Source: Chthoniobacteraceae bacterium
Lineage (GTDB): Bacteria > Verrucomicrobiota > Verrucomicrobiia > Chthoniobacterales > Chthoniobacteraceae
Direction of reading: 5' to 3'
Assembly (NCBI GenBank): GCA_947476255.1
Contig: CANJPY010000016.1
Location: 1-62,262 of the forward strand
Length of the DNA stretch: 62,262 bases
Position numbers and translations under genes: made by a program
In this document: positions 5,852 through 23,125 of the stretch, in pieces
Position numbering within the stretch: the first letter of the stretch is position 1
How the letters are laid out: every line of letters begins with the position of its first letter
The notes under the pieces: generated by a model
What the model was told of the DNA's origin: nothing
What the model saw: the letters and a program-made list of their open reading frames with translations, nothing else
Database searches by the model: none

Positions 5852-8800
5852 TTATTCCCCCGCGGGCACGACCGTGAGCACCGCCTGGGCGCTCTCCACC
5901 GTGTTGCCGAAATCATCTGAGGCCACTACAAAATAACGCCCCGCGTTGGTCTTCGACACGTTCGACACACTCAAAAACGGCGACGAACCCGAACTCAACA
6001 GCAACCGCTGCCCCGACGCTCCCACCTTGTACCACGAATACGCCGAGGCACTGCCAGAAAGCTTCACCCCGAAATTCGCCACACCCCCCGCACTCACCGT
6101 GATCGACGAGGGCGGGACCAAGACCGTCAACGGATTCACCACCCCTGCCGTCACTCCCGTCGCCGCACCCCATGACGTCACCAAAAACCTGATCGACCGC
6201 GTCGATTTCGAAGTTTTAACCGTGAACATAAACTGGCCGGGTTTCTTGCTTAACCCGGGCGTCGAAAAATCAATACTCGTCCCGGTCTGGCCGGCAATCG
6301 GAGTGTAGGTCCCCAAACCAAGCGGCCCCCACGACCACCAATAACTCGCACCCGAACCCGCCCGCATCGCCATCTGCAACACGTCATTGGCAGGCACCTT
6401 CCCCTGCAGATCCACATACCCGTTGTTAGGCACCTTGCGCAAATCAAACGACCGCCCCGCACGAAGCAGACGCGCATCATAAAACGCCACGTCCAACTGC
6501 ACGATCGCAGGCGTGCTTTCCACGCTCCCAAGAGCGTTGTACGCCACCACCGTATACAACCCCTCCGCTTCCGTCGTCGGATCATAGATCGTGTACGTCA
6601 ACGTAATCGGCGTCCCTCCCCCCACCAAACGAACCGGCGCTCCTATCAATACCCCGTTCTTCTTCCATTGATACCAGAACGAGGAAATACACAGCGCCTT
6701 CGCAGACAACGTCGCATTGACTCCGGCAGCGACCGTCTGCGAGGCCGGGTGCGCGTAAATCACGGGCGGTCCCGCGATCACAATCTGTGCCTTCGCACTC
6801 GTCACCGTCCCCAGGAAGTTGCTCACCTCCACCGTGTAACTCCCCCAAGATTTCGAAGACAACGCCTTGATCTGATACGTCGCACTCGTCGCCCCGCTCA
6901 AGAGCACCCCGTCCCTGTACCACTGGTAGCTCAAACTCCCGGACCCCGTCGCACTCACACTCAACGTCACCGGCGAGCCTTCCGCCACCTCCGCAGACGC
7001 CGGTTGGGTCACAATGCTCACTGGCAGGTTCACCGACAACGCCGCCGCTCCGCTCGTCACACTCCCCGCAGCATTCGTAATCACCACGTCATAACTCCCC
7101 GCATTCGCCGCCTTCGCGTTCGCGATCGCGTAACTCGCGCCCGTCGCCCCGGCAATCGCCACTCCGTCCTTGCGCCACTGATACGTAAACGGCCCCGAGC
7201 CACTCACCTTGATGCTCAAGGTCGCAGGAGCCCCCAAAGTCACCGTCACCGGTGCGGGCGCAGTCACCACAGACGCCGGCAAAATCACCGAAAGCGTCGC
7301 CGCAGAAGACGTCACGCTCCCCACTGGATTGGTGACCACCACATCGTACGCTCCGGCATCTCCAACCTGCACACTGGCAACCGTATAACTCGCAGCCGTG
7401 CCTCCCGAAATCGCGACACCCGCCCTGCGCCACTGATAAGTCATGGGCGCCGTGCCAGTGGCCGTCACGCTAAAGTTCGCGGTCTGACTGAGCACCACCG
7501 CTGCCGAAACAGGCTGCGTGGTGATACTGATCGCAGTGTTCACACTCACCGTCGCCCCAAGGCTCGTCACACTGCCCACCATGTTGCCCACCACCACATC
7601 ATAGACGCCTGCGCTCGCACTTTTCGCGTTCGTAAGCGCATACGTCGCATTCGTCGCTCCGGCGATGTTTGCGCCGTTCTTGCGCCATTGATACGTCAAA
7701 GGCCCCGTCCCCGTCGCCTCCACACTGAATGTCGTGCTGCCGCCCGGATTAAGCGCACCGCCGGCAGGCTGCGTCGTGATGACAACGGGCGTATTCAGCC
7801 CCAACGACACAAGATTGCTACTTACGGAACCGGCGGGATTTGTCACCACCACGTCGTACCCGCCCGCGTCCCCTGCGCCCGCTCCCGCAAGGGTGTAGGA
7901 ACTGGAGGTTGCGCCCGCAATGGCCACCCCGTTTTTACGCCACTGATAGCTCAAGGGCGCCGTCCCCGTCGCCGTCACGGAGAAGGTCGCATTGGCTCCG
8001 GGATTCAACACCGCACTTACGGGTTGTTGCGTAATGACCGCCGAAGAATTCACCGTGAGCAGCGCCGCATCACTCGTCACACTGCTGCTAGGATTGGACA
8101 CCAGCACGCTGTAGGAACCCGCGTTCACCGTTTGCGCATTGGCAAGTGTATACGCGGCAGAGGTCGCACCTGAAATCGCCACGCCTCCCTTGCGCCACTG
8201 GTAGGAAAACGGAGCCGCTCCCGCTGCCACCACGGAAAAAGTCGCACTCGAACCAGCCGTGACCGTTACTCCCGTGGGCTGTGCCGCGATGCTCACCGGC
8301 GCGCCCACCGTCACAGCAAATGTCCCGCTCGATACATTGCCAAAGGTGTCCGTCGCCGTGGCCGTCACCGTCGTCGTCCCTACCGCAAATAGACTCCCGC
8401 TCGCCGGGGAATAGACAAGCGTCGAAGACCCCGTATTGTCCACCGCACTCACCGTACTCAGCGCCACCACCATGCCACTCCCGGAGGACGCAAAAGTACT
8501 CGTCCCTGCCAGGCTCAGTACCGGCGGCAACGTGTCCACCACGCCGCTCGCAGAGAGCGTTCCTCCACCCAAACCCGTCGGGCGTCCGCGCGCCAACCGG
8601 AAGCCATAAAAGTAAGTCGTGTCGGTCGGAAAATTGTAAGCCCTCGCCGCACTCCGGGCATCGTCCGCAAAGGCTCCCCACGCAGTCCCCCGCTGAATCC
8701 GGCAGTTCCCGGTGGACGCTCCCCGCGGATTACTCCCCCCGCTATACGACGCCCCATACCAGTCCCAGCACCACTGCGCCACGTTCCCCGCCATGTCGTA

Positions 8801-11800
8801 CAAACCGTACCCATTTGCCGCAAAACTCTCCACCGGACTCGTATACGGGTTTCCGCCCGTGGCATAGACCGGATGGTAATTGTTCACCGAACCGCTCGCG
8901 TCATAGGTATAAGTGGCGCTCGCCTTGTAGTTCGCCTGACTCTGCGAAAGCGTATTCCCCCACGGAAACCGTTTCCCGCTCAAGCCCCCGCGCGCGGCCA
9001 CCTCCCACTCCGCCTCCGTGGGCAACCGATAGCCGTTGGCGCTCCAATCGCAGGTGACGGCATCATTCTGCGTCGTTCGATACACCGCTCCGCCCACCTT
9101 GTAACAAGGCGTCAACCCGTCTTTCTCACTCGCCGCGTTCGCCCATTTCACGGCGTCGTACCACGTCAACGTCTGCACCGGATGGTTCGCCGCCTTCCCC
9201 CCTCCTGCGGGCAGGTCTGTGTACCCGTTGCTCGCCCCCCACGTCCGCACCACATCCCACTGCGCCTTGGTGGTGTCGTTCACGGAAAGGTAGTACGGAC
9301 TCAGCGTTACAGACACCGTCCCTGCGTTGGTGATGTCCCCGTCCCCGACCAGATTCCCCATGGAGTAAGCACCTCCCGGGATCGGCGCGAAACTCCCGCC
9401 GGCGCCATCCAGGAGCGGGGTAATGCGCATCTTCGCCCGCGACGTTCCGGAATTCGGGTAGTCCGTTCCCGCGTCCCAGACGATGTGTTTGCCGGTGCCC
9501 GCCGTGATGGCAGCGCCGACGTCGCCCGTAAGGGTCGCCATCGAAGTGAACGTCGTTCCCCCATCCATGGAAACGCCCAGTGCCATACTCGTAGTGCCAC
9601 CCGTCAGCGTATAATAGATGTCCACAAGCTTGGAGCCGTCGGTACGCTGCGCGAAGGTGACGGCGCTGGGGGCTGGGAGATTGACAGTGAGTGAGGCGGC
9701 CGCGCTGGTGACAGTCCCCGCGGGATTGGTGATGAGCACGTCGTAGGAGGCTTCGTCGCCCGCGCTCACGCTTGCCAGCGCGTACGAGGCGGAGGTGGCG
9801 CCGGAGATGTTCATGCCATTCTTGCGCCACTGGTAGGTGATGGGCGCGGTGCCGGAAGCCGTTACCGAAAGCGTGGCGCTATTTCCGCTAGTGACCGATA
9901 AAGATAAAGGCTGAGCAGAAATGGTCGGCGCCACTAGAGGAATTCCAATTCGAATGACATTTTCGGTCGCGTCAGCGACGTAAACAGATCCGGCACTATT
10001 AACGGCAACTCCATATGGGAGGCAGAAAACCGCAGCGCTTCCAACGCCGTCAACGTTGGACTTCAAGCCGGGCGTACCTGCAATGGTCGTAACTGCGCCT
10101 GCGGGATCGATTCTTCGGATCACACTGTTGCCAGAGTCCGCGACCAGAATATTTCCTGAGCTATCCACTGCCACTCCCACAGGAGTGTTGAAGCGTGCCG
10201 CACTCCTCGTTCCGTCGACGCTCCCGGTAGTGAGTGCGGTGCCAGCCAAGGTCGACACGACACCTGCACTGGTGATCTTGCGAATCACGTGATTAGAAGA
10301 GTCTGCCACGAAAACATTTCCACTGCCATCTGTGCCAATCCCAACAGGGGCGTTGAACCTCGCGGCACTAACATCCCCGTCGATACTGCCAGGGCTAAGT
10401 GCGGCGCCGGCAAACGTCGAAACAGAGCCTGCGCTGGTTATTTTCCGAATCACGTGATTGGAAGAGTCCGCCACGAAAAGGTTTCCCAAACTATCGATGG
10501 CAATACCGCGAGGGCCGTTAAATCGAGCTGCGCTTCCCATTCCATTGGTGTTGCCGCTGATTAGGGCCGCACCGGCAAAGGTTGATACCACCCCCGCACT
10601 GGTGATCTTGCGAACCACATGATTGGAAGAGTCCGCAACAAAGAGATTGCCCGAACCGTCGATTGCAAGGCCGTAAGGGGAATTGAACCGCGCGGCACTA
10701 CCCACTCCGTCGCTACTCCCACTGCTGAGTGCGGTGCCCGCAAATGTAGATACAACGCCTGCGCTGGATATTTTGCGGATTACATGGTTGGAAGAATCCG
10801 CCACAAAGACGTTTCCCGATCCATCAATCGCAATGCCGCGCGGTATACTGAACCTCGCCGCACTCCCCACTCCATTAGTGCTGCCGCTGCTAGGTGGCGC
10901 GCCCGCAAAAGTGGACACAATGCCCGCGCTGGTGATACGGCGTATTAAATGGTTTGAAAAATCTGCGACGAAAATGTCTCCCGATCCGTTGACAACAACA
11001 CCACGAGGCGAATTAAAACGAGCGGCGCTCCCTGTTCCGTTGGTGTTGCCGCTGATACCCGCAGTGCCGGCAATTACTGAGACAACGCCTGCTCTGGTGA
11101 TTCTCCGGATTAAATGGTTCGAAGAGTCCGCCACGATGACGTCCCCCGACGCATCCACGGCAACATCATTGGGAAGGTTAAACCGCGCTGCACTCCCCGT
11201 TCCATTGTTGCTCCCAGTCAGACCTGCAGCTCCTGCCAAGGTTGATACGGAGCCACCGCTTGTGATTGCTCGGATAAGATGGTTGTTGTAATCAGCCACA
11301 AAAACATTGCCCGAACCATCCACGGCGACCCCAGTCGGATTTTTAAACCGAGCGGCACTTCCCACCCCATCAGCAATACCACTCAGACCAGCCGAACCAG
11401 CAAAGGTAGACACGATACCAGCGCTCGTGATCTTGCGAATAATGTGGTTCGAATAATCTGCAACAAAGACATTGCCAGACCCGTCTACGGCAACCCGCAA
11501 CGGTCCTGAAAATCGCGCGGCACTTCCCATTCCGTCGGTGGTGCCGCTGATACCCGCCGCCCCGGCAAAGACTGAAACAACTCCCGCGCTCGTGATCTTT
11601 CGGACGAGTTGGTTACCATAGTCCGCCACGAAAGCATTCCCAGACGCATCAAAGGCAACGCCGTAAGGGTTAAGAAACCGAGCGGCACTTCCTGTCCCAT
11701 TGGCGCTGCCGCTAAGACCTGGAGAGCCAGCAAAGGTTGAGACGCCGCCCTCGGCAGTGATCTTTCGGATGACATGATTAGAAGAGTCCGTGACAAAGAT

Positions 11801-12154
11801 ATTGCCAAAGCCATCCATAGAAATTCCATGGGGGAAATTAAACCTTCCGCCACTCCCTGTTCCATCTGCACTTCCTATCGCCCCGGGAGTTCCCGCCAAA
11901 GTAGCCCATGAATAAGTCTGCGCGCGGAGTGTCTGCAAGCAGCACACTAACATCAAAAACAGCATCACCCAGGCACCAGCGTTGCTAAGGGCGCGAGCAC
12001 CTAAAACGCCGCGCTTTCCTGCCGCCTTCGACTGCGACGGGGCGATCTGGTTGAGAATTGATACTTTTTGGTGAAAAACCATGCCCTTTTCAAAATTAAA
12101 GTGAGATACATGTGCCGCAATATTAAATTGATGTCGAATGCTACTTATTTTCAC
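5852..12154 (-). CDS. Giant secreted protein: 12 NHL-like repeats, Ig-like domains and a SUMF1-type domain
   Basis: A 2,100-residue exported protein. A signal peptide (hydrophobic core about 62-73, cleavage after RAQ near 79) is followed by 12 tandem repeats of 55 residues (about 83-738) with the NHL beta-propeller motif FVADSSNHVIRKIT. Next come an Ig-like domain, a beta-sandwich, a SUMF1/formylglycine-enzyme-like domain (EAEWEVAARGG, GLYDMAGNVAQW), an HYR-like domain and about eight more Ig-like domains with the YQWRKNGVAI signature. The SUMF1 domain lacks the cysteine pair needed for formylglycine synthesis, so it is more likely a binding module. No sorting signal is evident at the C terminus. 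The start is a GTG; Met25 (12082) is an alternative. Probable role: surface adhesion or ligand binding (inference). Confidence 0.85.
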   Translation of the reverse strand: MKISSIRHQFNIAAHVSHFNFEKGMVFHQKVSILNQIAPSQSKAAGKRGVLGARALSNAGAWVMLFLMLVCCLQTLRAQTYSWATLAGTPGAIGSADGTGSGGRFNFPHGISMDGFGNIFVTDSSNHVIRKITAEGGVSTFAGSPGLSGSANGTGSAARFLNPYGVAFDASGNAFVADYGNQLVRKITSAGVVSVFAGAAGISGTTDGMGSAARFSGPLRVAVDGSGNVFVADYSNHIIRKITSAGIVSTFAGSAGLSGIADGVGSAARFKNPTGVAVDGSGNVFVADYNNHLIRAITSGGSVSTLAGAAGLTGSNNGTGSAARFNLPNDVAVDASGDVIVADSSNHLIRRITRAGVVSVIAGTAGISGNTNGTGSAARFNSPRGVVVNGSGDIFVADFSNHLIRRITSAGIVSTFAGAPPSSGSTNGVGSAARFSIPRGIAIDGSGNVFVADSSNHVIRKISSAGVVSTFAGTALSSGSSDGVGSAARFNSPYGLAIDGSGNLFVADSSNHVVRKITSAGVVSTFAGAALISGNTNGMGSAARFNGPRGIAIDSLGNLFVADSSNHVIRKITSAGSVSTFAGAALSPGSIDGDVSAARFNAPVGIGTDGSGNVFVADSSNHVIRKITSAGVVSTLAGTALTTGSVDGTRSAARFNTPVGVAVDSSGNILVADSGNSVIRRIDPAGAVTTIAGTPGLKSNVDGVGSAAVFCLPYGVAVNSAGSVYVADATENVIRIGIPLVAPTISAQPLSLSVTSGNSATLSVTASGTAPITYQWRKNGMNISGATSASYALASVSAGDEASYDVLITNPAGTVTSAAASLTVNLPAPSAVTFAQRTDGSKLVDIYYTLTGGTTSMALGVSMDGGTTFTSMATLTGDVGAAITAGTGKHIVWDAGTDYPNSGTSRAKMRITPLLDGAGGSFAPIPGGAYSMGNLVGDGDITNAGTVSVTLSPYYLSVNDTTKAQWDVVRTWGASNGYTDLPAGGGKAANHPVQTLTWYDAVKWANAASEKDGLTPCYKVGGAVYRTTQNDAVTCDWSANGYRLPTEAEWEVAARGGLSGKRFPWGNTLSQSQANYKASATYTYDASGSVNNYHPVYATGGNPYTSPVESFAANGYGLYDMAGNVAQWCWDWYGASYSGGSNPRGASTGNCRIQRGTAWGAFADDARSAARAYNFPTDTTYFYGFRLARGRPTGLGGGTLSASGVVDTLPPVLSLAGTSTFASSGSGMVVALSTVSAVDNTGSSTLVYSPASGSLFAVGTTTVTATATDTFGNVSSGTFAVTVGAPVSIAAQPTGVTVTAGSSATFSVVAAGAAPFSYQWRKGGVAISGATSAAYTLANAQTVNAGSYSVLVSNPSSSVTSDAALLTVNSSAVITQQPVSAVLNPGANATFSVTATGTAPLSYQWRKNGVAIAGATSSSYTLAGAGAGDAGGYDVVVTNPAGSVSSNLVSLGLNTPVVITTQPAGGALNPGGSTTFSVEATGTGPLTYQWRKNGANIAGATNATYALTNAKSASAGVYDVVVGNMVGSVTSLGATVSVNTAISITTQPVSAAVVLSQTANFSVTATGTAPMTYQWRRAGVAISGGTAASYTVASVQVGDAGAYDVVVTNPVGSVTSSAATLSVILPASVVTAPAPVTVTLGAPATLSIKVSGSGPFTYQWRKDGVAIAGATGASYAIANAKAANAGSYDVVITNAAGSVTSGAAALSVNLPVSIVTQPASAEVAEGSPVTLSVSATGSGSLSYQWYRDGVLLSGATSATYQIKALSSKSWGSYTVEVSNFLGTVTSAKAQIVIAGPPVIYAHPASQTVAAGVNATLSAKALCISSFWYQWKKNGVLIGAPVRLVGGGTPITLTYTIYDPTTEAEGLYTVVAYNALGSVESTPAIVQLDVAFYDARLLRAGRSFDLRKVPNNGYVDLQGKVPANDVLQMAMRAGSGASYWWSWGPLGLGTYTPIAGQTGTSIDFSTPGLSKKPGQFMFTVKTSKSTRSIRFLVTSWGAATGVTAGVVNPLTVLVPPSSITVSAGGVANFGVKLSGSASAYSWYKVGASGQRLLLSSGSSPFLSVSNVSKTNAGRYFVVASDDFGNTVESAQAVLTVVPAGE
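6490..8310 (-). repeat. Tandem Ig-domain-encoding repeats (about 255 bp period)
   Basis: Seven consecutive Ig-like modules of about 85 residues, each with an I-TQP start, a TYQWRKNGVAI core and a D-G-YDVVVTNPAGSVTS strand, are encoded by diverged direct repeats inside the giant secreted-protein gene. This is a likely place for copy-number change by recombination. Confidence 0.75.
9941..11908 (-). repeat. Twelve 165-bp NHL-encoding tandem repeats
   Basis: Twelve near-regular units of 55 codons encode VST-AG...GSAARFN-P-G-A-D-SGN-FVADSSNH-IRKITSAG. For example, the segment around AATCACGTGATT at 10285 recurs 165 bp on at about 10450. Twelve repeats of one to two propeller blades each could close one or two beta-propellers. 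Confidence 0.85.
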
Positions 12155-12665: not shown

Positions 12666-12850
12666 GCTTTCTATGCTCGCAAAGTACTACATAGTAAATC
12701 CGCCGTCCCGTTGCAATTACAAACAATATGTCAGCGGCAAGCTAAGTTCAGCCATGCGGTTTCAGGACCACGAAAGCGCTTGAGATCCGTCAGGCAGGGT
12801 TGATTAAGGCATCCATGCACCTCGGCACAGACGAGGGTAAGGAGGGAGGA

Positions 12851-14119
12851 ATGAAGCGCCGTTTGGAGAACGGCCTCTGCGAAGCCATGGACCCCGAGTC
12901 AATACACCAGCCGCACGACAAACTTTTCAAGGCGACCTTCAGCAACCCGGAAAATGCGGCGGCGTTTTTGCGCCACCACCTGCCGCCTTCCGTGGCCAAC
13001 TCAATCCAGTGGACGGCGCTCGAGTATCACCCCGGCAGTTTCATCGACGAACAGCTGCGCGGCTCGGAGGCGGACCTCCTGTTTCGGGTCAAAGCACAGG
13101 ATGCCGAGGTGTTCCTCTACCTGCTTTGGGAACACCGCAGCAGTCCCTCGCCGCTGATGGCGCTGCGTCTTCTGTCCTACATGGTGCGGATCTGGACGCA
13201 GCAGGCACAGGAACAGAGCGGGACGGTGAGGCTGGCGCCGATTTTGCCGGTGGTGCTGGCGCAGGACAAACGGCGCTGGAAGGTGTCGGAGCGGTTCAAG
13301 GATATGTTCGGGTTGACGCCGGAGCGTTGGGCTGAGGTGGGGGCGTTTACGCCGGACTTTGCGTTCCGGTTGCTGCAGTTGGTGGACATGCCGTATGAAG
13401 CGATCGCAGGCACGGCCGAGGGCATCCTGACATTGCGCGCGCTCAAGGCGGAGGCGGTGGACGAGTTGCTCCACGAGGTGGTTTGGGAGGCGGGTTTGCT
13501 GCGAACGTTGCCTTTGGAGAGGGCGGAGCGGTTTTTCCGGTACATGCTCAACGCGGGCATTGACAAGCGCACGTTTGAGAGGAGAGTGCAACAGATCAAC
13601 AGCGGTGCACTCATCCGACACGCCATGACACTCGCCGACCAATACCGACAAGAAGGCCTCGAACAGGGCTTGGAACGAAGCCGCTCTCTCGCCGACCAAT
13701 ACCGGCAAGAAGGACTCGAACAGGGCTTGGAACGAAGCCGCTCTCTCGCCGACCAATACCGGCAAGAGGGCCTCGAACAAGGCTTGGAACGAAGCCGCTC
13801 TCTCGCCGACCAATACCGGCAAGAGGGCCTCGAACAGGGCTTGGAACGAAGCCGCTCTCTCGCCGACCAATACCGGCAAGAAGGACTCGAACAAGGACTC
13901 GAACAAGGACTCGAACAAGGACTCGAACAAGGACTCGAGCGTGGCGAGACCCAGGCGCAACGCCGAATGCTCTTGGACGTTTTGGAAATGCGTTTTGACG
14001 CCGTTCCAGCAGGCCTCCGCGAGCATCTCGAGGGACTGGCGGACAGGAATCGGTTAGCCAACCTCCTCAAGCTGGCAGTGTGTTGCACGGATTTGGAGGC
14101 ATTTGCAAAAAAACTCTGA
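12851..14119 (+). CDS. Rpn-family recombination-promoting nuclease / PD-(D/E)XK putative transposase
   Basis: A 422-residue protein beginning with the Rpn/YhgA hallmark HDKLFKATFSNPENAAAFL, followed by the nuclease core SEADLLFRV...VFLYLLWEHRSSP (about 75-105), where the Asp and Glu fit a PD-(D/E)XK metal site. The C-terminal third contains a 19-residue repeat (LADQYRQEGLEQGLERSRS) five times, the last partial, then four GLEQ units, typical of the repetitive tails of this family. The start at 12851 is preferred over the upstream Met at 12800 because a strong AAGGAGG (12839-12845) lies 5 nt before it. Rpn proteins are DNA endonucleases linked to RecA-independent recombination; some act in phage defence. 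Confidence 0.85.
   Translation: MKRRLENGLCEAMDPESIHQPHDKLFKATFSNPENAAAFLRHHLPPSVANSIQWTALEYHPGSFIDEQLRGSEADLLFRVKAQDAEVFLYLLWEHRSSPSPLMALRLLSYMVRIWTQQAQEQSGTVRLAPILPVVLAQDKRRWKVSERFKDMFGLTPERWAEVGAFTPDFAFRLLQLVDMPYEAIAGTAEGILTLRALKAEAVDELLHEVVWEAGLLRTLPLERAERFFRYMLNAGIDKRTFERRVQQINSGALIRHAMTLADQYRQEGLEQGLERSRSLADQYRQEGLEQGLERSRSLADQYRQEGLEQGLERSRSLADQYRQEGLEQGLERSRSLADQYRQEGLEQGLEQGLEQGLEQGLERGETQAQRRMLLDVLEMRFDAVPAGLREHLEGLADRNRLANLLKLAVCCTDLEAFAKKL
13631..13940 (+). repeat. In-frame 57-bp tandem repeats followed by 12-bp repeats
   Basis: Units begin at 13631, 13688, 13745, 13802 and 13859 (57 bp each; the last is partial), with few base differences between copies. The 12-bp unit GGACTCGAACAA then repeats about four times. 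Near identity means recent slippage or unequal recombination; both periods are multiples of three, so length changes keep the frame. Confidence 0.95.
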
Positions 14120-14248
14120 CTCTTTCATCCCCAGCTTGTTAGCGGGCTTTTGAGTGCACAGAACCAAAGCACGGCGGCCTACAGAAAAACGGCAGAAACA
14201 CAAGGAGCCTTCTCGACGGAGTCCGTGCCCCCGCAAAACAACGCTGCC

Positions 14249-15178
14249 CTATTGTGCACTGATCCCGCTCAGCGGGTGCTCGGTCACAGCCTGCCACGCA
14301 AGCTGCTGAAGCATTTTCACCAGCGCCACGTCCGCTTTCTCGCCCCCAAGCTGGCTGGGTGCCTTCAACCCAACCGGACTGGTCCGATACGTCACGGCGT
14401 AATGGCAATACGACGCCAGCACTTGGATCACGGGTTTCGGATGCCCGATCGCATCCGTAAAAAGATCGTTTTGGTCGCGCACCCCCGGCGCCTCTCCCCT
14501 GATCACTTTTTCCCTCAGCGCTAAAACAGCCTGGCCCACAGGAACCACAAAACACACGTTCGCTCCCAGCTTTGCGTTCAACTCTTTGACGTGCTCGTCC
14601 ATCGCCCGGAAGTAGGCGTTGTGCCGTTCACGCAATTCCGCGACTGTCACGGAATTGTGGTCCCCGCCTTTCGGGTTGGCCTGCATGTTTGGGGGTTCAT
14701 ACCAGTCATGAGGAAGCCAGAACTCCTGCACAGTCACGCGAATCGCCGGATTTTTTTCATGGGCGAGTTTCGCAAAGTTTTCGATCCCCTCATCCGGCAG
14801 GAAAATGGGCGCCAGTGTCAAAACGTCCACCTGTCCCGCGGTTAAGACCTCCTTTGCCTTCGATTTACCCTCGGCCACATTCCAGTGCTGGATCACGCGC
14901 GACGCGCCAATGGAAGACAGTCCCGCCTGCACATGCCCTTGAATCCCAGCCGCCGCCGCCATTTCCCGCAGGATATTTGGCATGAACACATGAAAGCTAT
15001 GCCCCACCGAAACCATTTTGACCCCCGCCCCCGGCGCTGCAGCGACCGCCACACTGGGAACCGCATTCGGGACGGCGTTCGAACTCGCGGGCGCTTGGGA
15101 ACGAACGGGCTCACTGCCGAGCAGCCAGACAGCCACGCAAACAAAAAGGCGGATGGTTTTATCAAGGGGGGCGGACAT
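14249..15178 (-). CDS. Secreted SGNH-hydrolase-like protein, function unknown
   Basis: A 309-residue protein with an N-terminal signal sequence (FVCVAVWLLGSEPVRSQA) and an Ala/Pro/Val linker. The core starts KMVSVGHSFHVFM, where GHSF replaces the usual GNS/GDS block, and ends with DAIGHPKPVIQ, which could supply the Asp-x-x-His of an SGNH esterase. This pattern resembles the DUF4886/SGNH group, but the match is only by eye. It lies 132 bp downstream of the DUF59-fusion gene on the same strand and may belong to that operon. Substrate unknown. Confidence 0.6.
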   Translation of the reverse strand: MSAPLDKTIRLFVCVAVWLLGSEPVRSQAPASSNAVPNAVPSVAVAAAPGAGVKMVSVGHSFHVFMPNILREMAAAAGIQGHVQAGLSSIGASRVIQHWNVAEGKSKAKEVLTAGQVDVLTLAPIFLPDEGIENFAKLAHEKNPAIRVTVQEFWLPHDWYEPPNMQANPKGGDHNSVTVAELRERHNAYFRAMDEHVKELNAKLGANVCFVVPVGQAVLALREKVIRGEAPGVRDQNDLFTDAIGHPKPVIQVLASYCHYAVTYRTSPVGLKAPSQLGGEKADVALVKMLQQLAWQAVTEHPLSGISAQ

Positions 15179-15310
15179 TCAGCAATAATGCTTCATGCCA
15201 TAAAAGAGGCAACAACGATGACCAGCACCAAAAACCAAATCGACTGCCAGCTTCAGACTTCCACCCTGCGCGGAGTCTGAGGGGTAAACTCGGCTTGCTT
15301 TCTCAACGCC

Positions 15311-17263
15311 TCAATACCCTAGCTTTCTGCGTCCTTCCACGGTGATGCGATTGGCCGTCCACGCGGGATCCCAGACTTGTTCCACCACCACGTCTCGGAC
15401 TCCCGGCACCCTAAGCAACACCTCACGCACTGGAGCTTTGTTTCCGCCGCCACCGTCGGAAAGATAATCAAGCCGGGGACGCCCATGGTGCGGCATTGCC
15501 ATCAGCACATGCACCACATCCGCGCGGATGCGTATGTCATAAATCAGCCCCAACTCCACCACACTGGGTCTTGTCGTGTAAAGCTGCTCGTCCCGACACT
15601 CCTCCAGAGCCTTCCATAGCAGCGCCTTCGCAACCTGGCTGTCGCCGGCCTCCCCCGCCCTCGCGAGCCTGCCCCTGCGTTCCGTGAACCCCTGCAAGGC
15701 CGTTTCCGGCAGCGGCGCGCAGCTCACTTTGAGCGGGCTCAGGAGCTTGCGCCGGATCGACTCAAACTCCCGACCGCCCTCCTTCTCGGGAAAAGGGAGG
15801 GTCAGATACGCATTTTTTTGATGCAGGGATGCACCTGCCTTCAACGTTGTGTTTCTGTAAAGCGCCCTGCTCCAAAGCTGTCCATGTCCTTTATAAAAAA
15901 GACTCGGCGAACCGGGATTTTTGAGCGGGGGCGCATTCGTGGCGGTGTGCTCCAGGAAAAGCCCGAGAAACGCGTCTCGTGTGGACTTGTGGAAAAAACC
16001 AACAGCCTGCAACTCCTCGTTCAAGGCCGCCTCCACAGGGCCCGTCCGCAAGCGGCCATCGTTTGGAATCCACATTGTGTCCGTGAAAGACATTCCCGAA
16101 AACACCCACTCGTCATCCCTCAAATAGCTGATCTCAAGGTCTTGCAGCACGTCCATCGTCCCCGTCTTCAGAAACCACGGTGTGCCGGAATAAAAGGTGT
16201 ATTCCGTACTCACGTGTATCCGGCTCGGGGTGAACACGGGATGCAGGGGGGAACTTGGAAACCCCCAGCGCCGAATTTTCAAGGATAAGGGCCCGCGAAT
16301 GACTTCATAACTGGGCGTCTCGGGCCAGTTGTTGATGCGCATCTTTTGAAAGCCGCCAGCCGTCACATAGTCATAGGCCCAGTCGATCCCGGGAGCCTCT
16401 CCGTGGCCCACTCCCCCTGCAAACAGCTCCAGTCCATGCTCCCTTTTGTAACCCAGACGGGTCAACTGCCCGATGCTCTTTGAGAGCGAGGCGCGGAAAA
16501 ACTCATTTTCAATTTCCAACCCCAGTCCTTCACCCTGCACCTTCAAGTCGGTGCTGTATGCGGGCCGTTCGGCTTCGGGATTCCCATGAAAAACCAGCCA
16601 GTGTGTCTTCTGCTGCTTTTTCTGATCTGCCAGCAACGTAATCCGGCACAACCGCTCCCCCCCTCGCAAAATCTCCTCGCTCACCTGGCTGCGCACCTCG
16701 CGCAAACTTCCATTTTCAATCCGCGCCACGCGGAGCTCGCGCCCCAGATCCACGGTATGCTCGGCCTGAAACGCCGCCACAAACTCCACCGGTTCCTGAA
16801 GGCGATCCTCCCCCGCAGTCTCCTCAAGCGTGAGAGGTGTTACATACGACCAGCCTGCCGCCCACTCCCGCCACACCGCAGGCAGCGTTGTCACGGGCAC
16901 CGATGCGGAGGCCGGCAACAAGGGTTCACCGATAGAGGCCCCCTGTTGCTCCTCGAACTGCAGCGTTTGCTTCATCGACGCCAAAATCGACTGCGCCAGA
17001 CGGAAGTTTTTCTGCGCGTACGCTCTCTCCAAATGTCTGCCTTTTTGCGCCACCGAATCCGTACGATCCGCATAAGTTTTTTCCCCGAGCCCTGCCGCTT
17101 TTGCCTCGGCTCCCTGATTTTGCGAGGGAGCTCCTGTCACTTTGTCCTGCGCCGCACAATTTCCCACGGACCAAACGGCGGCCCAAAAAGCCATGAGCCA
17201 AACGCCACGTCTTTGCCCCTTCTGTTTGCGCTGGTGGGATTCAAGGGCACGCCGTCCTGTCAT
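15311..17263 (-). CDS. Exported protein with a large beta-rich domain and a C-terminal DUF59/MIP18-like domain
   Basis: About 650 residues from the chosen Met at 17263, which places a signal peptide (LMAFWAAVWSVGNCAAQ) near the N terminus; the frame stays open to 17455. The central 450 residues (EFFRASLSKSIGQLTRLGY, HVSTEYTFYSGTPWFLKTG) look like a carbohydrate-active beta-sandwich or mutarotase/lyase fold, but I cannot name the family. The last 105 residues match DUF59/SufT-like metal-sulfur assembly proteins (VVELGLIYDIRI, then LLRVPGVRDVVVEQVWDPAW). The conserved Cys region is replaced by a His/Gly-rich loop (AMPHHGRPRLDY) with no Cys. An exported DUF59 domain is odd, since the family normally acts in the cytoplasm. 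It follows the CotH-VTC-DUF4956 genes. Confidence 0.65.
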   Translation of the reverse strand: MTGRRALESHQRKQKGQRRGVWLMAFWAAVWSVGNCAAQDKVTGAPSQNQGAEAKAAGLGEKTYADRTDSVAQKGRHLERAYAQKNFRLAQSILASMKQTLQFEEQQGASIGEPLLPASASVPVTTLPAVWREWAAGWSYVTPLTLEETAGEDRLQEPVEFVAAFQAEHTVDLGRELRVARIENGSLREVRSQVSEEILRGGERLCRITLLADQKKQQKTHWLVFHGNPEAERPAYSTDLKVQGEGLGLEIENEFFRASLSKSIGQLTRLGYKREHGLELFAGGVGHGEAPGIDWAYDYVTAGGFQKMRINNWPETPSYEVIRGPLSLKIRRWGFPSSPLHPVFTPSRIHVSTEYTFYSGTPWFLKTGTMDVLQDLEISYLRDDEWVFSGMSFTDTMWIPNDGRLRTGPVEAALNEELQAVGFFHKSTRDAFLGLFLEHTATNAPPLKNPGSPSLFYKGHGQLWSRALYRNTTLKAGASLHQKNAYLTLPFPEKEGGREFESIRRKLLSPLKVSCAPLPETALQGFTERRGRLARAGEAGDSQVAKALLWKALEECRDEQLYTTRPSVVELGLIYDIRIRADVVHVLMAMPHHGRPRLDYLSDGGGGNKAPVREVLLRVPGVRDVVVEQVWDPAWTANRITVEGRRKLGY

Positions 17264-17496
17264 CACCCACGCTTTAACCAAGATTGAAGAAACACGCTTC
17301 CCAGGTTTGCTCAAACTGGCGCTTCCACCGCGCCGAAGCGGTTCCAAAAACATCAATTGTTTGATCATAGATACGCATTCAGAGGTGCCCCAACAAGGAC
17401 ACGAGCCATCCCACGAATTCTCACGCCGGTCTTGAACACATCTCCGCGGCTCCACCCTCGGACCACCACCGTTTTTAATGCCTGCTTCATGACCTC

Positions 17497-18216
17497 CTAG
17501 TCCGAGAGGAGATTGTTTCCAGCTGGCGTCAAAAGAATGCGGTTGTTGGCGTTGAGCGTCTGGAGCTTTTGCAGGAAACCACTGATCTGTTGAGAGTCGC
17601 GAAGGATGATCGCGAACCGCAGTTCGGTCATCAGGCCGGCTTGAACCGTTTCAACGGAATCAAGCTGGTGGAAGGTCAGGAACTCTTTAAACGCCTCGTT
17701 AAAGACGCTGGCGTAATCGATGTGATTGTTCACGCGCACACGCAACACGTGCGAGACGCGCCTTGGAGCAAAAGCATCCATCTTCGAAAGCAGGCCAACG
17801 AGAGCGCAAAGGATCGGGGTGGTGAGAGACGCCAGAGCATAAGCGCCCGCCCCCACGGCAAGACCGGTGGCCATGGCCATGAAGATAAAGCCGATGTCAC
17901 GCGCCTGTCCCACGGAACTTCGGAAGCGGATGATGGAAAAAGCGGCGAACATTCCGAAGGCCGTGGACTGACTTCCCCGGACAACCATGATGACAACGGT
18001 CACAACCGTGCCCAAGAGAAGGAGGGTGTGGACATAGTCCTGAGAGTATTTGGTGCCGCGATAGGTGCGCTTATAGACGTAAGCGATGAGGCAGTTGAGG
18101 ACAAAGCTCAGTGCCAGCGCGAACAGCACTTCGGAAGCGGAGGCGTGCTCCGTGCCAGACGGGTTGATTGAATGGAACAGGTTTTGAAAGAAATCGGTTG
18201 GGGCTTGGTTGTCCAT
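17497..18216 (-). CDS. DUF4956 family membrane protein
   Basis: A 239-residue protein with hydrophobic segments around 30-48, 61-80, 85-115 and 120-140, then a soluble C-terminal domain. The segment FGMFAAFSIIRFRSSVGQARDIGFIFMA is characteristic of DUF4956. It lies 23 bp downstream of the VTC gene. The VTC-DUF4956 pairing recurs in bacteria, which suggests the membrane protein anchors or forms a channel for the polymer made by the VTC domain, by analogy with the fused membrane part of yeast VTC. That role is inference. Confidence 0.88.
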   Translation of the reverse strand: MDNQAPTDFFQNLFHSINPSGTEHASASEVLFALALSFVLNCLIAYVYKRTYRGTKYSQDYVHTLLLLGTVVTVVIMVVRGSQSTAFGMFAAFSIIRFRSSVGQARDIGFIFMAMATGLAVGAGAYALASLTTPILCALVGLLSKMDAFAPRRVSHVLRVRVNNHIDYASVFNEAFKEFLTFHQLDSVETVQAGLMTELRFAIILRDSQQISGFLQKLQTLNANNRILLTPAGNNLLSD

Positions 18217-18239
18217 GAAAGGGGAGGAGAAAGGTAAAC

Positions 18240-18995
18240 TCAGGAGAGGGTGGCTGCAATTTCAGGAAGAGAGCCCAAGGCGTGGCAGTATTTACTGAAA
18301 CTCGTGGGCTGAATTTGCTGCCTGCCAAGAAAAGTAGAGAGCGAGTACGGCATGGCTCCATGCCCCTTGATCTCGAGAATCCGCTGCCCTTCAGCAAGCA
18401 GAGAAGTCGAAAAGCGGGAGTCATCGGGCTCTGGCACCAGCAGCTCAAAGCGGTGCTGGACGGCGTCATCGAAAGTGATGCGCAGCGGTTCCTCCAAGGG
18501 TGCGCGCTCGTCGGGGAGAGAAGCCATCGCGAAAGCCGTACGCCTGTAGCGCACGACACAACGCGGCTCAAAACGTTCAATGTGCACCATGCGCCGCACT
18601 TGTTCGACGACCTGCACGGCCTCGCGGGGCACTGGCGTCGCAGAAGCTTGTCCGGAAGCCAGTCCAAGGGCGTTTGAAAGATCGGTCTGAAACCGGTGCT
18701 TGACGCCTTTTCCGTCGATCTTGCATTTGATCTCAAGGAACGCGGAGGGCGAAATCGTGCCGTCTTTGGAACCATACACCCGCACCCTCAGTTTACGCCT
18801 GCTGGGCAACCGCCGCCATGCCTCCCAATAACAGTCCATGTCCGGGGTGTCGTAGTACAGACTGACCACGGGATAGACGCCGGAGGGCCCGCCCTGCGTG
18901 TCGGGGCGCAAACAGGAACCGAACGCCCTGAGAAAAGCCTCGCTCTGGTCCTGGCCGAGGACAAACTTAAATTCAAAGCGTTCAGAGATTTCCAT
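18240..18995 (-). CDS. VTC-domain polyphosphate polymerase-like protein
   Basis: A 251-residue protein that is essentially one VTC domain. The N-terminal RFEFKFVL motif, YPVVSLYYDTPD (41-52), the basic strand RKLRVRVYG (67-75), FLEIKCKIDGKGVKHR (87-102) and the late LEIKGHGAMPYSL strand line the tunnel that in VTC4 makes polyphosphate from ATP. Key Lys, Arg and Glu positions appear intact. The start lies 3 bp after the CotH stop codon, so translation is probably coupled. The true polymer or substrate in bacteria with CotH neighbours is not established. Confidence 0.88.
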   Translation of the reverse strand: MEISERFEFKFVLGQDQSEAFLRAFGSCLRPDTQGGPSGVYPVVSLYYDTPDMDCYWEAWRRLPSRRKLRVRVYGSKDGTISPSAFLEIKCKIDGKGVKHRFQTDLSNALGLASGQASATPVPREAVQVVEQVRRMVHIERFEPRCVVRYRRTAFAMASLPDERAPLEEPLRITFDDAVQHRFELLVPEPDDSRFSTSLLAEGQRILEIKGHGAMPYSLSTFLGRQQIQPTSFSKYCHALGSLPEIAATLS

Positions 18996-18998
18996 ATC

Positions 18999-20852
18999 CT
19001 ATTGAATCCGGGTAAGACGCAGGGTTTTGCGGTCGATCCACAGCTCGCCAGCCTTGGCCCGAATCTCGGCGACCAAAATGTGTTCGCTCCCTGCCGATTC
19101 AAATTCGTAGGCAACCTTGGTCCAAGGCAGGTTTCCCTCGAACGCATTCTTTCCCTGCCGGCTCCCTCCAGAAATCCGCAGCCCGACCCCCTCGCCCGAG
19201 GGATCGGAAATTTTTTCAACGGCGTTTGCGCGGATCTCCGCCTCGAAGCGGAAAACCCCCTTGGGCAAAAAGATTGGAAGGCGCCAAGACCCCTTGGCCT
19301 CGCCTTTGGCTTTCACGTGCAGGCACTGGCGGTTTTCAAAGGTGGGTTGGTCACCTTCAGAGTTCTCGTTCTGGGAAACCCATTCCAGAGGCGCTAGGTC
19401 CACGACAGGAGATTTCTCAAACTTTTTGGCCGGATTCTCCGCTTTAAGCTGGGTGCGTATCGCTTCAATGCGTGCACGGATACGGTCCCTCGACTGGGGA
19501 ATGAGAGGTTCGTAGGAGGTCGCCGCTTGGGGATTTACAACGGCCAGCGCCTTCTTCAGGCGCTGCCCGGTTTGCTCGGCCTTCTCGGGCCATTCCCCTT
19601 TAAAGAGCACATTCTCGCACACCTCACGGAGAACAACGTCATAGCGCGCGCGCACCTCGGGCTTACGCCAGAGAATGGCTCCCACGGAAGCTTGGGGCGC
19701 CTTCCAAAGGTTCCAATTCGTTTCTCCAAACATCTGATCCATGCCGTGAAGGAAAAAATGGAACCGGCCAGTGTCTGGATTCTCATAGACTCTATAGTTG
19801 TTCCGGTTGAAGGAATAACCGTCCCGGTGGCAAAGGATGTTTTCGAGTGCCACGTAGCGAATATACGCTTCTACATCCACACTTTGTGCCAACAGCGCGA
19901 TTTGACGTGCCGGATCAGGCTCCGCAATGGCTTTAAGAAGCTCTCCCAGACGTTCCTGGTGCTCCTCGTCGCCGCGATCCAACTCCATCTCCTTCCTGAG
20001 GTCGGCACAAAAGCCTCCATCATAAAGATTCCCATCGGTACGCACGAAAAACGCACCGATCAGCTCGTCTCGAAAACCTTCCTTGAGCACGTAGGTGCCA
20101 AGATACTTTCCATTCAAAGAAACGATCGCATGGGTGCAGCGGGAAGCGGGCACCCCCGCTTTTCTGGCAATGCGTCCGCTGATGAGTTCGTTCAGAGCCG
20201 TGCCGTCCTGATTGCAGTTGTTGAGCTGAAATTTGGAAAGACCGTGAAAGCGCTCCTTCCCCTTGAACTTGGCGGTGTTGATGGAAAAGCCGGGGCGGTC
20301 GTCGATGGGTTTAAAACTGCCCACGGAGCCCTTGAGTTTGATACCCACATTCGAAACAGTTGCACCGCCCTGCTCTTCAATGGTGGCTTTGACATACTCG
20401 CGGGGTTGTTTACGCAGCTTTTCGATCCCCTCGTCGGTGATCCGGATCTTCACCACGGGAATCAGTCCCGCAAACAATGCGTCCTCATTTTCAATGTCCT
20501 TGGGGGTGGCCGCCTTCTTCTGTATGGCCACCGCATCCATGGGAACCCAAACCGCAATCAGACGCCCCCCCTGCTCGACACCGACAAAGACTTGTTTTGA
20601 GGCGGCGCGCACCTCCAAGACCCGGAATGCCTCCCCTTCCTCGCCGGTGCGAAGAGTTTTATCGAGAAACCGTAACGGTTCGTTTCGAGTGAGTTCCACG
20701 GTCATCCCGGGCGCAATCGCAGTGGTTGGGGATGCGGCCGTTTTGGAAACCGTCTCGGCCGCTATACCGTGGGGATAAGACGAAAAAAGAAGACTCCACG
20801 CGATGAGCAGTCTCAGTACGCAAGATTGAGGTAACCAGCATGGCAGCGGCAT
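18999..20852 (-). CDS. CotH-family secreted kinase with a C-terminal jelly-roll-like domain
   Basis: A 617-residue protein with a signal peptide (LLIAWSLLFSSYPHGIAA), a short SH3-like part (about 50-110) and a CotH kinase fold: IKLKGSVGS (171-179), LNNCNQDGTALNELI (210-224), the Lys/Glu segment YLGTYVLKEGF (250-260) and the metal-binding HGMDQMFGE (369-377). CotH proteins phosphorylate secreted proteins, such as spore coat proteins in Bacillus. The last 120 residues resemble a carbohydrate-binding beta-sandwich. It is first in a minus-strand operon with VTC and DUF4956 genes, so a kinase, a nucleotide-dependent polymerase and a membrane partner are made together. Confidence 0.88.
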   Translation of the reverse strand: MPLPCWLPQSCVLRLLIAWSLLFSSYPHGIAAETVSKTAASPTTAIAPGMTVELTRNEPLRFLDKTLRTGEEGEAFRVLEVRAASKQVFVGVEQGGRLIAVWVPMDAVAIQKKAATPKDIENEDALFAGLIPVVKIRITDEGIEKLRKQPREYVKATIEEQGGATVSNVGIKLKGSVGSFKPIDDRPGFSINTAKFKGKERFHGLSKFQLNNCNQDGTALNELISGRIARKAGVPASRCTHAIVSLNGKYLGTYVLKEGFRDELIGAFFVRTDGNLYDGGFCADLRKEMELDRGDEEHQERLGELLKAIAEPDPARQIALLAQSVDVEAYIRYVALENILCHRDGYSFNRNNYRVYENPDTGRFHFFLHGMDQMFGETNWNLWKAPQASVGAILWRKPEVRARYDVVLREVCENVLFKGEWPEKAEQTGQRLKKALAVVNPQAATSYEPLIPQSRDRIRARIEAIRTQLKAENPAKKFEKSPVVDLAPLEWVSQNENSEGDQPTFENRQCLHVKAKGEAKGSWRLPIFLPKGVFRFEAEIRANAVEKISDPSGEGVGLRISGGSRQGKNAFEGNLPWTKVAYEFESAGSEHILVAEIRAKAGELWIDRKTLRLTRIQ

Positions 20853-21277
20853 CAGAAAGGAGTAGGGTCAGGACATCGTTTCCCTACTCCGAAAAGCTCG
20901 CAGGCGCGGATGTCCACGATGTAAGCAGGACACCTCCAGGCGCGTTCACCGGAAAATGGCTTTCCAGCAGAGGGGAATACACTTCGGGATACACTAGTCA
21001 TTCAGTCTACTCAATAAAATCCTGAGTTTATCCCCCTTCTCCCGTGAGGTGAATCAGCCAGCCCTTGCCCCTGTCGCGAGTACGAACAAAAGCGTTCCCC
21101 ACCCCACCTCCGCTCCGTCCCATAAAATGCTTCGCTACGCCTGAATAGGATGGAATTGACTCTGTCACAGCCCTTAGGATCACGACTCTCCCAGAGCCAG
21201 ACCTCCCCGCGCCGTCCATGCCAGGTTCGCCAGACCCTTGTTTGCCGCCGCGAGGGTCTCTCCCGAATCACTTTCCC
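20853..21277. other. Intergenic region between divergent CotH and DUF885 genes
   Basis: 425 bp with no supported gene. A 9-bp inverted repeat, GGAGTAGGG at 20859-20867 and CCCTACTCC at 20882-20890, lies directly upstream of the CotH start and could be an operator or part of a 5' hairpin. Promoters for both divergent genes must be here but none is clear by eye. Confidence 0.5.
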
Positions 21278-23125
21278 ATGACACACTCTCGTTTCGCCTG
21301 CCTTGCCTCGCTACTCCTCGTCGCTCTCGCGCCCATGCCGGCACGCGCAGAGGTGCCATCGCTTCCATCGCTCATTGCCCAATTCGAAGCCGACCAGCGT
21401 CTGCTCGGAATTCACCTCGCGCTCGCAGCCGAATCCGAGGCGTCACTCGTGCAGCAGCGTGAACTCCTCCAACACTGGAGTCGCCGCATCGCGGACGTTC
21501 CTTTTACTCGGCTCCCCCACGACCAGCAGGTCGACGCCCTCCTCCTCCAAAACGAACTCAAGGCCACCCTCCTCCAACTCGACACCCGCACCGAACGCCG
21601 CGCGGAACTCGCCCCCTGGCTGCCCTTCCAAGCCGCCATCAACAGTCTCACGGAAGCCCGCGTGCGCGGGGAACCCCTCGACCCGGAAAAAGCCGCTTCC
21701 CTGCTGGCTCCAGTCCCAAAAGCCATCAAGTCCGCGCGCGAAGCCCTCAAAGCGACCAAACAAAAAAAGGACGAAAAGAAAGAACCCGCTCCCAAACCGT
21801 CGGCCGAAACGCCCACCACTACAGAGGCCCTTCCTCCCCTCGCCCTGCCCACACCGTATCAGGCCCTCCTCGCCGCCGAGGCCACCGACGCGCTTGCTTC
21901 CAGCCTCAAACTTTGGTTCGACAATTATCAGGGCTTTCTCCCCGACTTCGCGTGGTGGGTCCGACAACCCCAGGAACAAACCGCAAAAGCCCTCACTGAA
22001 TACTCCAAGTACCTCCGCGAAGAGATCGCCGGGTTCAAGCCAGCCGCCAAGGACGCGGACGGGGCAGCGCAAAAATCTTCCGCCGCCGATGAAGAGGCCT
22101 CGGAGGAGCCACTCCTGGGCAAACCCATCGGTGAGGAAAGCCTCCAGCGCCAATTGGCCCTTGAGTTTATTCCCTACTCACCCGCAGAGCTCATCACGAT
22201 CGCGGAACGCGAGTTCGCCTGGTGTGAGGACCAAATGCGTGCCGCCTCCCGCGAACTCAAGCAGGGCGACGACTGGAAAAAGGCCCTCAAACAGGTCAAA
22301 CTCGAGCACGTCAAACCCGGCGAACAAGAGACTTTCGTGCGCGCCGAAGCCCGCCGTGCCACCGACTTTGTCAAAGAGCGCCAACTCGTCACCGTTCCCC
22401 CTCAGTGTGAACAATGGTGGGGCACCCGGATGCTCCTGCTTGCCGAACAACGCAGCATCCCTTACGCGGCGTATACAGGCCACGACATGCTCGTGGCCTT
22501 CGCCAGCGAAGCCATGAAACACGAGGACAAACTCATGTCCATGCGCGGCAACAACCGTGCCTTCACCCGCAACGTGGTCCCCCACGAAATCATCCCCGGG
22601 CACCATCTTCAGTGCTACATGGCGGCGCGCGAAAGGCCCTACCGCAGCCTCTTCAGCACCCCCTTCTTCGTCGAGGGCTGGTCTCTGTATTGGGAAATGC
22701 GCCTCTATTCCCTCCAGTACCAGGCCACTCCTGAAGACCGCATCGGCGCCCTTTTCTGGCGCATGCACCGCTGCGCGCGCATCATCGTCACTCTCAAGTA
22801 TCATCTCGGCCAAATGGAACCCGCGCAGATGGTGGATTTCCTCATTGAGCGTGTCGTCCACGAACGCTTCGGCGCCACCAGCGAAGTGCGCAGGTATATC
22901 CGCGGCAACTACAGCCCCCTCTACCAGTGCGGGTACATGCTCGGGGGCCTCCAGATCCTCGCCCTCCACCGCGAACTCGTGGCGTCCGGCAAATTCACCG
23001 AACAACAATTTCACGACGCGCTCCTCAAACTCGGCCCCATCCCCATCGAACTCGTCCGCGCCAGCCTCCTCCAGCAACCCCTCTCCCCAGACTTCAAGAC
23101 CCAGTGGCGCTTTGATACGCCCTAG
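21278..23125 (+). CDS. DUF885 family zinc metallopeptidase, exported
   Basis: A 615-residue protein of the DUF885 family. The HEIIPGHH motif starts near residue 436 and supplies zinc-binding His and a catalytic Glu; FVEGWSLYWEMRL follows with the likely third ligand. A signal peptide (CLASLLLVALAPMPARA) directly follows Met 21278, so I prefer this start to the open frame from 21218. Residues 165-195 form a Lys/Pro/Glu/Thr-rich linker that seems to be an insertion. The family contains periplasmic or extracellular peptidases of poorly known specificity. It is monocistronic as far as can be seen. Confidence 0.88.
   Translation: MTHSRFACLASLLLVALAPMPARAEVPSLPSLIAQFEADQRLLGIHLALAAESEASLVQQRELLQHWSRRIADVPFTRLPHDQQVDALLLQNELKATLLQLDTRTERRAELAPWLPFQAAINSLTEARVRGEPLDPEKAASLLAPVPKAIKSAREALKATKQKKDEKKEPAPKPSAETPTTTEALPPLALPTPYQALLAAEATDALASSLKLWFDNYQGFLPDFAWWVRQPQEQTAKALTEYSKYLREEIAGFKPAAKDADGAAQKSSAADEEASEEPLLGKPIGEESLQRQLALEFIPYSPAELITIAEREFAWCEDQMRAASRELKQGDDWKKALKQVKLEHVKPGEQETFVRAEARRATDFVKERQLVTVPPQCEQWWGTRMLLLAEQRSIPYAAYTGHDMLVAFASEAMKHEDKLMSMRGNNRAFTRNVVPHEIIPGHHLQCYMAARERPYRSLFSTPFFVEGWSLYWEMRLYSLQYQATPEDRIGALFWRMHRCARIIVTLKYHLGQMEPAQMVDFLIERVVHERFGATSEVRRYIRGNYSPLYQCGYMLGGLQILALHRELVASGKFTEQQFHDALLKLGPIPIELVRASLLQQPLSPDFKTQWRFDTP

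Follow-up and report, generated by a model that had tools for sequence, protein, structure and literature searches.

The CotH-VTC-DUF4956 gene trio of the Chthoniobacteraceae bacterium examined here is, in our opinion, best explained as a real operon and unit of function, with the two genes behind it being independent neighbours, and we assign this explanation as a whole a probability of about one-half. The window, that is, the whole stretch of 62,262 nucleotides that was analyzed, contains five minus-strand genes in a row, and the ORF listing placed all of them at the same coordinates as the initial annotation. The trio consists of a CotH-family protein (617 aa; 18999..20852, minus strand; PF08757, E 2.4e-26, 93.5 bits against a cut-off of 23.8), a VTC (triphosphate-tunnel) polymerase domain (251 aa; 18240..18995, minus strand; PF09359, E 2.1e-31) and a DUF4956 membrane protein (239 aa; 17497..18216, minus strand; PF16316, E 3.6e-18), and the Pfam scores of all three were far over the cut-off. 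The gaps of 3 bp (CotH-VTC) and 23 bp (VTC-DUF4956) noted initially were both found in the sequence. An intergenic gap of 233 bp (17264..17496) separates the trio from the gene for a fusion protein with an N-terminal part of no credible family match and a C-terminal PaaD/MIP18-like domain (650 aa; 15311..17263, minus strand), which is followed after 132 bp by the gene for a probably exported protein of a paralogous family (309 aa; 14249..15178, minus strand). Both were judged to lie outside the trio.

The three genes also adjoin on one strand and in the same order in two related genomes, G001 and G028, in which the CotH-VTC gaps are 3 and 5 bp and the flanks differ. DNA alignment with G001 (L067; 3,229 bp, 72% identity) spanned the trio and stopped exactly at the DUF4956 stop codon (17497). 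In the initial annotation, the five-gene set was proposed to make and export a polymer and to modify surface proteins, and it could be read as a single operon that also attaches the polymer to such proteins. In favor of this reading, the five genes are consecutive and share one strand, and terminator-like matches in the region did not exceed the chance level (10 versus 10.8 in shuffles; promoter-like matches, 0 versus 1.9, were likewise not above chance). However, neither downstream gene accompanied the trio, or was found anywhere, in G001 or G028 (82% and 86% complete, respectively), and the neighborhood comparison revealed no co-occurrence of these genes with the trio elsewhere in the genomes examined. 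The 524-aa N-terminal part of the fusion protein matched nothing but itself in 288 genomes of the phylum, and VTC, CotH and DUF4956 were absent from all the loci at which its five relatives are encoded. VTC was not found in four of these five genomes, whose completeness is not given, and the fifth has VTC on two contigs (C123 and C401), not at the fusion locus. The 309-aa family was present in 11 of 197 related genomes, own included, and VTC in 4 of these 11 (G000, G013, G032 and G039). The five-gene operon is largely refuted by such comparison and appears very unlikely. What can be retained of the original proposal is the combination of a polymer enzyme, a membrane partner and an exported kinase-like protein, which is supported by the conserved VTC residues, the DUF4956 pairing and the CotH co-occurrence described below. 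The five-gene combination, which the initial annotation took to be undescribed, joins a trio described in the available text of PMC7112168 to two genes that were not its companions in the genomes examined.

Pairing of VTC with DUF4956 was regular in the related genomes. Each family was detected in 21 of the 197 genomes (22 VTC loci and 22 DUF4956 places), and comparison of coordinates showed that 20 of the 22 VTC loci had DUF4956 as a neighbor on the same contig; VTC in G010:C8 and G013:C15 and DUF4956 in G013:C73 and G014:C452 were unpaired. CotH adjoined VTC in a minority of the loci: the gene immediately upstream of VTC is CotH in three of the 22 (G000, G001 and G028). At least five more have a giant LTD-CotH protein (lamin-tail and CotH domains) within a few kb of VTC, a lower bound since the scan covered part of the neighboring genes and several of the contigs are short. 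The giant gene lies behind VTC-DUF4956 in the same orientation in G021, G033, G034 and G035 and is divergent in G024. Other genes were also observed next to the pair. In L051 and L055, the next gene encodes a protein with the N-terminal methylation (pilin-like, N_methyl) motif, which was below the cut-off in L050, and VTC of G015 (L055) has a class A penicillin-binding protein in front of it; two other followers had no match and one was HlyD-like.

The arrangement could also be examined outside these relatives. Among five DUF4956 places in the plasmid collection, three were fetched (Nonomuraea, Paenibacillus and Acetoanaerobium). VTC and DUF4956 adjoin in Paenibacillus and Acetoanaerobium, with phospholipase D adjoining the pair in the latter; in Nonomuraea, DUF4956 is followed by CotH and VTC was not detected in 14.6 kb. 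The Paenibacillus pair (L098:6231-9655) is followed by a Cthe_2159 carbohydrate-binding protein in place of CotH. In 14 named control genomes, VTC and DUF4956 were found in the same three organisms (Bacteroides ihuae, Corynebacterium glutamicum and Methanosarcina acetivorans), and CotH was found in two of those three and in Bacillus subtilis, with all three families being present in C. glutamicum.

The link between VTC and CotH was also examined at the level of whole genomes. Two family searches (VTC and CotH) were performed in a phylum sample of 387 genomes, which we take to be the same sample in both because the counts agree and the non-matching genomes listed are identical, and identified VTC in 76 and CotH in 99 of them. 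CotH was present in 73 of the 76 VTC genomes versus 26 of the 311 genomes without VTC; 3 genomes had VTC only (G208, G237 and G288), 26 CotH only and 285 neither. The Fisher p value (~2e-52) overstates the association because the genomes are related. At higher levels, 33 of 35 families and 51 of 54 genera with VTC had a genome with CotH. Similarly, among the 197 relatives 18 genomes had both, 3 VTC only (G010, G039 and G041) and 9 CotH only, and in the own family (40 genomes) CotH was found in 17 of 19 VTC genomes. When 97 relatives of known genome size were divided into four size classes, the association was observed in three of them (p 0.0014, 0.0093 and 0.0007) and was not seen in genomes below 3 Mb (p 0.24). 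The data did not support the idea that genome size alone accounts for the co-occurrence (Mantel-Haenszel odds ratio 41 over the size classes, in counts that treat related genomes as independent). Physical linkage was less frequent: among the CotH matches listed, with at most approximately five candidates scored per genome, CotH lay within 6 kb in at least 24 of 90 VTC loci of the phylum sample. The VTC-CotH co-occurrence across the phylum is new here and, as a pattern in genome content, hints that the two proteins may work jointly.

With regard to the polymerase, a profile of 21 VTC sequences matched yeast VTC4 (3g3q, E 2.4e-15), and the invariant columns of the alignment included R70, R72, E88, K90, R152, R172, D176, E208, K210 and K235. 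In our own mapping based on the HMM alignment, R70, R72 and E208 fall on R264, R266 and E426 of VTC4; a complex with VTC4 R264A/R266A/E426N is reported as catalytically impaired in the available text of PMC9911596. Both the VTC/tunnel fold and its catalytic basic and acidic residues are thus recovered by the sequence profile. Hydropathy analysis flagged no transmembrane segment in VTC; DUF4956 showed four hydrophobic segments, its C-terminal part being soluble. The profile search of PDB found no credible match of DUF4956 to solved structures, including the membrane subunits of yeast VTC, and a channel role of DUF4956 is conjecture for this reason. It should be noted that 34 of the 39 family genomes, among them the own genome, have PPK1, as do 16 of the 18 that carry VTC, and the idea that VTC is a mere replacement of PPK1 was rejected on this basis. 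The presence of PPK1, together with the varied activities of the triphosphate-tunnel superfamily (PMC4641920, available text), would fit another explanation, in which VTC-DUF4956 makes no polyphosphate, the tunnel domain hydrolyzing or binding triphosphate or polyphosphate and DUF4956 acting as a sensor or regulator. We consider this explanation unlikely, as the catalytic residues of VTC4 are conserved and the family is VTC itself.

The kinase-fold domain of the window CotH (approximately residues 189-466) matched the structure of the Bacillus spore-coat kinase CotH (5jd9, profile E 1.3e-7). It is followed by a C-terminal tail (approximately 19002..19400, minus strand), which is kept in the three trio CotH proteins and whose initial description as carbohydrate-binding-like is supported by a weak match of the three-protein profile to an endoglucanase chain (8ag9, E 7e-4). 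According to the available text of PMC12189002, CotH has residues matching D166, N171 and D184 of PKA, and adenine is sandwiched by Tyr142 and Trp245. Compared with Bacillus CotH (5jd9/5jda), a member of the same family, the window protein keeps the first two PKA-equivalent catalytic residues (D344 and N352 in our own mapping). However, it has HGMD (residues 369-372) at the place of the Bacillus WDYD (WDxD) motif, so that in the same mapping the metal-binding Asp corresponds to G370, with Asp372 two residues further, and the adenine-stacking Trp to His; it also differs in having the additional C-terminal tail. Such changes are not restricted to the window, and HG(M/I)D was kept in all 12 fetched relatives of this CotH subfamily (chosen by profile coordinates, one protein per genome, from family genomes G013, G015, G020, G021, G022, G024, G029, G032, G033, G034, G035 and G038). 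In the Nonomuraea CotH behind DUF4956 and in four LTD-CotH proteins, the Trp and the first Asp were kept, and the LTD-CotH of L056 had HDFE at the motif. The altered site may reflect a shifted functional Asp, lost activity or another donor, all of which are possible. Examination of the loci of the 12 subfamily proteins (5.8-11 kb) found no VTC or DUF4956 match in any of them, so that all 12 genes are separate from VTC; in 11 of the 12 genomes VTC was present elsewhere, G038 being the one without VTC. A separate difference was observed at 19824-19826, where residue 343 of the window CotH, directly before the catalytic Asp, is Arg; this residue is Trp in G001, G028 and all 12 subfamily relatives. 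Export of CotH, the fusion protein and the last protein was judged from their N-termini by eye only, and scanning of the three for hydropathy with a 19-residue window and a threshold of 1.6 did not flag any segment.

On the basis of these sequence features, we suggest a coupled model with roughly even odds, in which VTC would make polyphosphate, DUF4956 would be its membrane partner and the exported CotH its user. The fold and conserved catalytic residues of VTC point to a cytosolic enzyme that would polymerize phosphate from ATP into polyphosphate. DUF4956, as judged from its pairing with VTC, would anchor the enzyme and probably pass the chain across the inner membrane, like the membrane parts of yeast VTC. 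The exported CotH with its carbohydrate-binding-like tail would act outside the cytoplasm and, considering the co-occurrence, may depend on the VTC product, which it could use as a phosphoryl donor or as a polymer to be attached to, or organized on, a surface glycan or protein. Points against the coupled model are that CotH adjoins VTC in a minority of loci, that the pair also has other neighbors, that DUF4956 precedes CotH in a Nonomuraea stretch with no VTC detected, that the CotH active site is altered, and that some genomes have one of the two families without the other. To our knowledge, the source of the phosphoryl donor for bacterial extracytoplasmic kinases is an open matter. A more far-reaching version of the coupled model, which we regard as having a small chance of being correct, is that VTC-DUF4956 powers CotH kinases outside the cytoplasm, with polyphosphate being threaded through the inner membrane and, in a compartment that lacks ATP, serving as donor or being transferred to glycans or proteins. 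If this is true, the replaced Trp and altered metal motif of the CotH subfamily would reflect a donor other than ATP. The near-obligate genomic tie of VTC and its membrane partner to CotH makes one answer to the donor question directly testable. No such proposal was recognized in the parts of the literature that were searchable, in which subscription journals are thinly covered.

The three-gene set itself is already known from other bacteria. As described in the available text of PMC7112168, genes for CotH, a poly-phosphate polymerase, DUF4956 and DUF4832 are contiguous with pelDEADAFG, such genes lie beside pel operons in Gram-positive streptococci, clostridia and bifidobacteria (with a diguanylate cyclase/phosphodiesterase gene in bifidobacteria), and CotH is suggested to regulate Pel via phosphorylation. 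The window resembles this accessory set in having the CotH, polymerase and DUF4956 genes together, and differs from it in the carbohydrate-binding-like tail and HGMD motif of CotH and in that DUF4832 was not among the scanned neighbors. The trio could accordingly be an accessory of polysaccharide secretion, in which VTC-DUF4956 serves a glycan machinery that is regulated or modified by CotH, an explanation in line with the pel neighborhoods, the CotH tail and the DUF5722 gene that precedes the trio in G001. On the other hand, PelG, the sole pel gene sought, was not found in any of six genomes, including the own genome (93% complete), and none of the seven proteins of the window that were scanned (12800-23125) was a glycan synthase, making this explanation possible but rather doubtful in the present organism. 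Another comparable locus is NELoc-2 of Clostridium perfringens, for which the available text of PMC2879425 reports VTC, tubulin-annotated membrane proteins and CotH. Like the trio, it has VTC-domain genes, each followed by a membrane-located gene, and then CotH, but its VTC gene is present twice, the copies being separated by a resolvase gene, and a putative glycosyl transferase is nearby (PMC2879425 and PMC11677781, available text); its membrane genes are annotated as tubulin/FtsZ, and we infer that they are DUF4956. Finally, the yeast VTC complex, which couples synthesis to translocation (PMC9911596, available text), shares with the window a catalytic tunnel domain with the same key residues that is coupled to a membrane part, although the catalytic and membrane parts are separate proteins here.

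The two genes behind the trio appear to have histories of their own. The fusion gene most likely starts with ATG at 17263, an alternative GTG start being located at 17455, and its relatives align only from approximately residue 57 on. Its N-terminal part had no credible match in family, PDB or tblastn searches. The C-terminal PaaD/MIP18 (DUF59)-like domain (approximately 15311..15643, minus strand) was recognized by the match of a six-member profile to 1uwd (E 1.3e-11); PF01883 was detected in all six members (best E 2e-9), the value for the window protein itself (0.0017) being below the cut-off. PaaD/MIP18 iron-sulfur assembly proteins are known for a Cys in a Cys-Pro motif; GRP stands at this place in the fusion protein, and GRP instead of the Cys motif was found in all six members aligned. 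In 97 relatives, only this end of the protein found matches besides itself. Five relatives of the fusion protein (47-53% identity) were identified in contigs of 84,980 species by a scan sensitive to close relatives only; all are from MAGs, four labeled Verrucomicrobia or Verrucomicrobiales and one Poribacteria. The protein is apparently exported here and apparently cytosolic (no signal peptide) in three relatives, as judged by eye. As for the neighbors of the relatives, L074 has a GH88-like gene (weak match, E 3e-4, below cut-off) and L075 a gene matching beta-helix and GH141; the neighbor in L071 lacks a Pfam match, and its product looks by eye like a glycoside-hydrolase propeller with a lectin-like tail. 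L073 has DUF1501 upstream and, on the opposite strand, OprB, a carbohydrate-selective porin. L072 begins inside the fusion gene and its scanned neighbor had no match. The fusion protein appears to represent a rare conserved family that adjoins carbohydrate-enzyme-like genes in up to three of the five relatives, and these neighbors weakly suggest that it is more likely tied to saccharide breakdown. A literature search for DUF59 fusions with polysaccharide lyase returned nothing relevant among the matches listed.

The 309-aa protein had no match in Pfam, NCBIfam or PDB. Its family is represented by 11 matches in G039, and the own genome has another copy besides the one in the window. The family alignment contains GHSFH and D-x3-H motifs, which resemble those of SGNH hydrolases; this resemblance suggests an SGNH-hydrolase-like fold, and the SGNH hydrolase family profile gave no match for the protein. 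Beyond this gene, an Rpn/YhgA-type nuclease gene was observed at 12800-14119, the 3' half of which contains two repeats, one in tandem with a unit of 57 bp (4.6 copies, 96% matches) and one of 12 bp, and a secreted-looking protein of 2100 aa with NHL-like and Ig-like repeats, as judged by eye, is encoded at 5852-12154.
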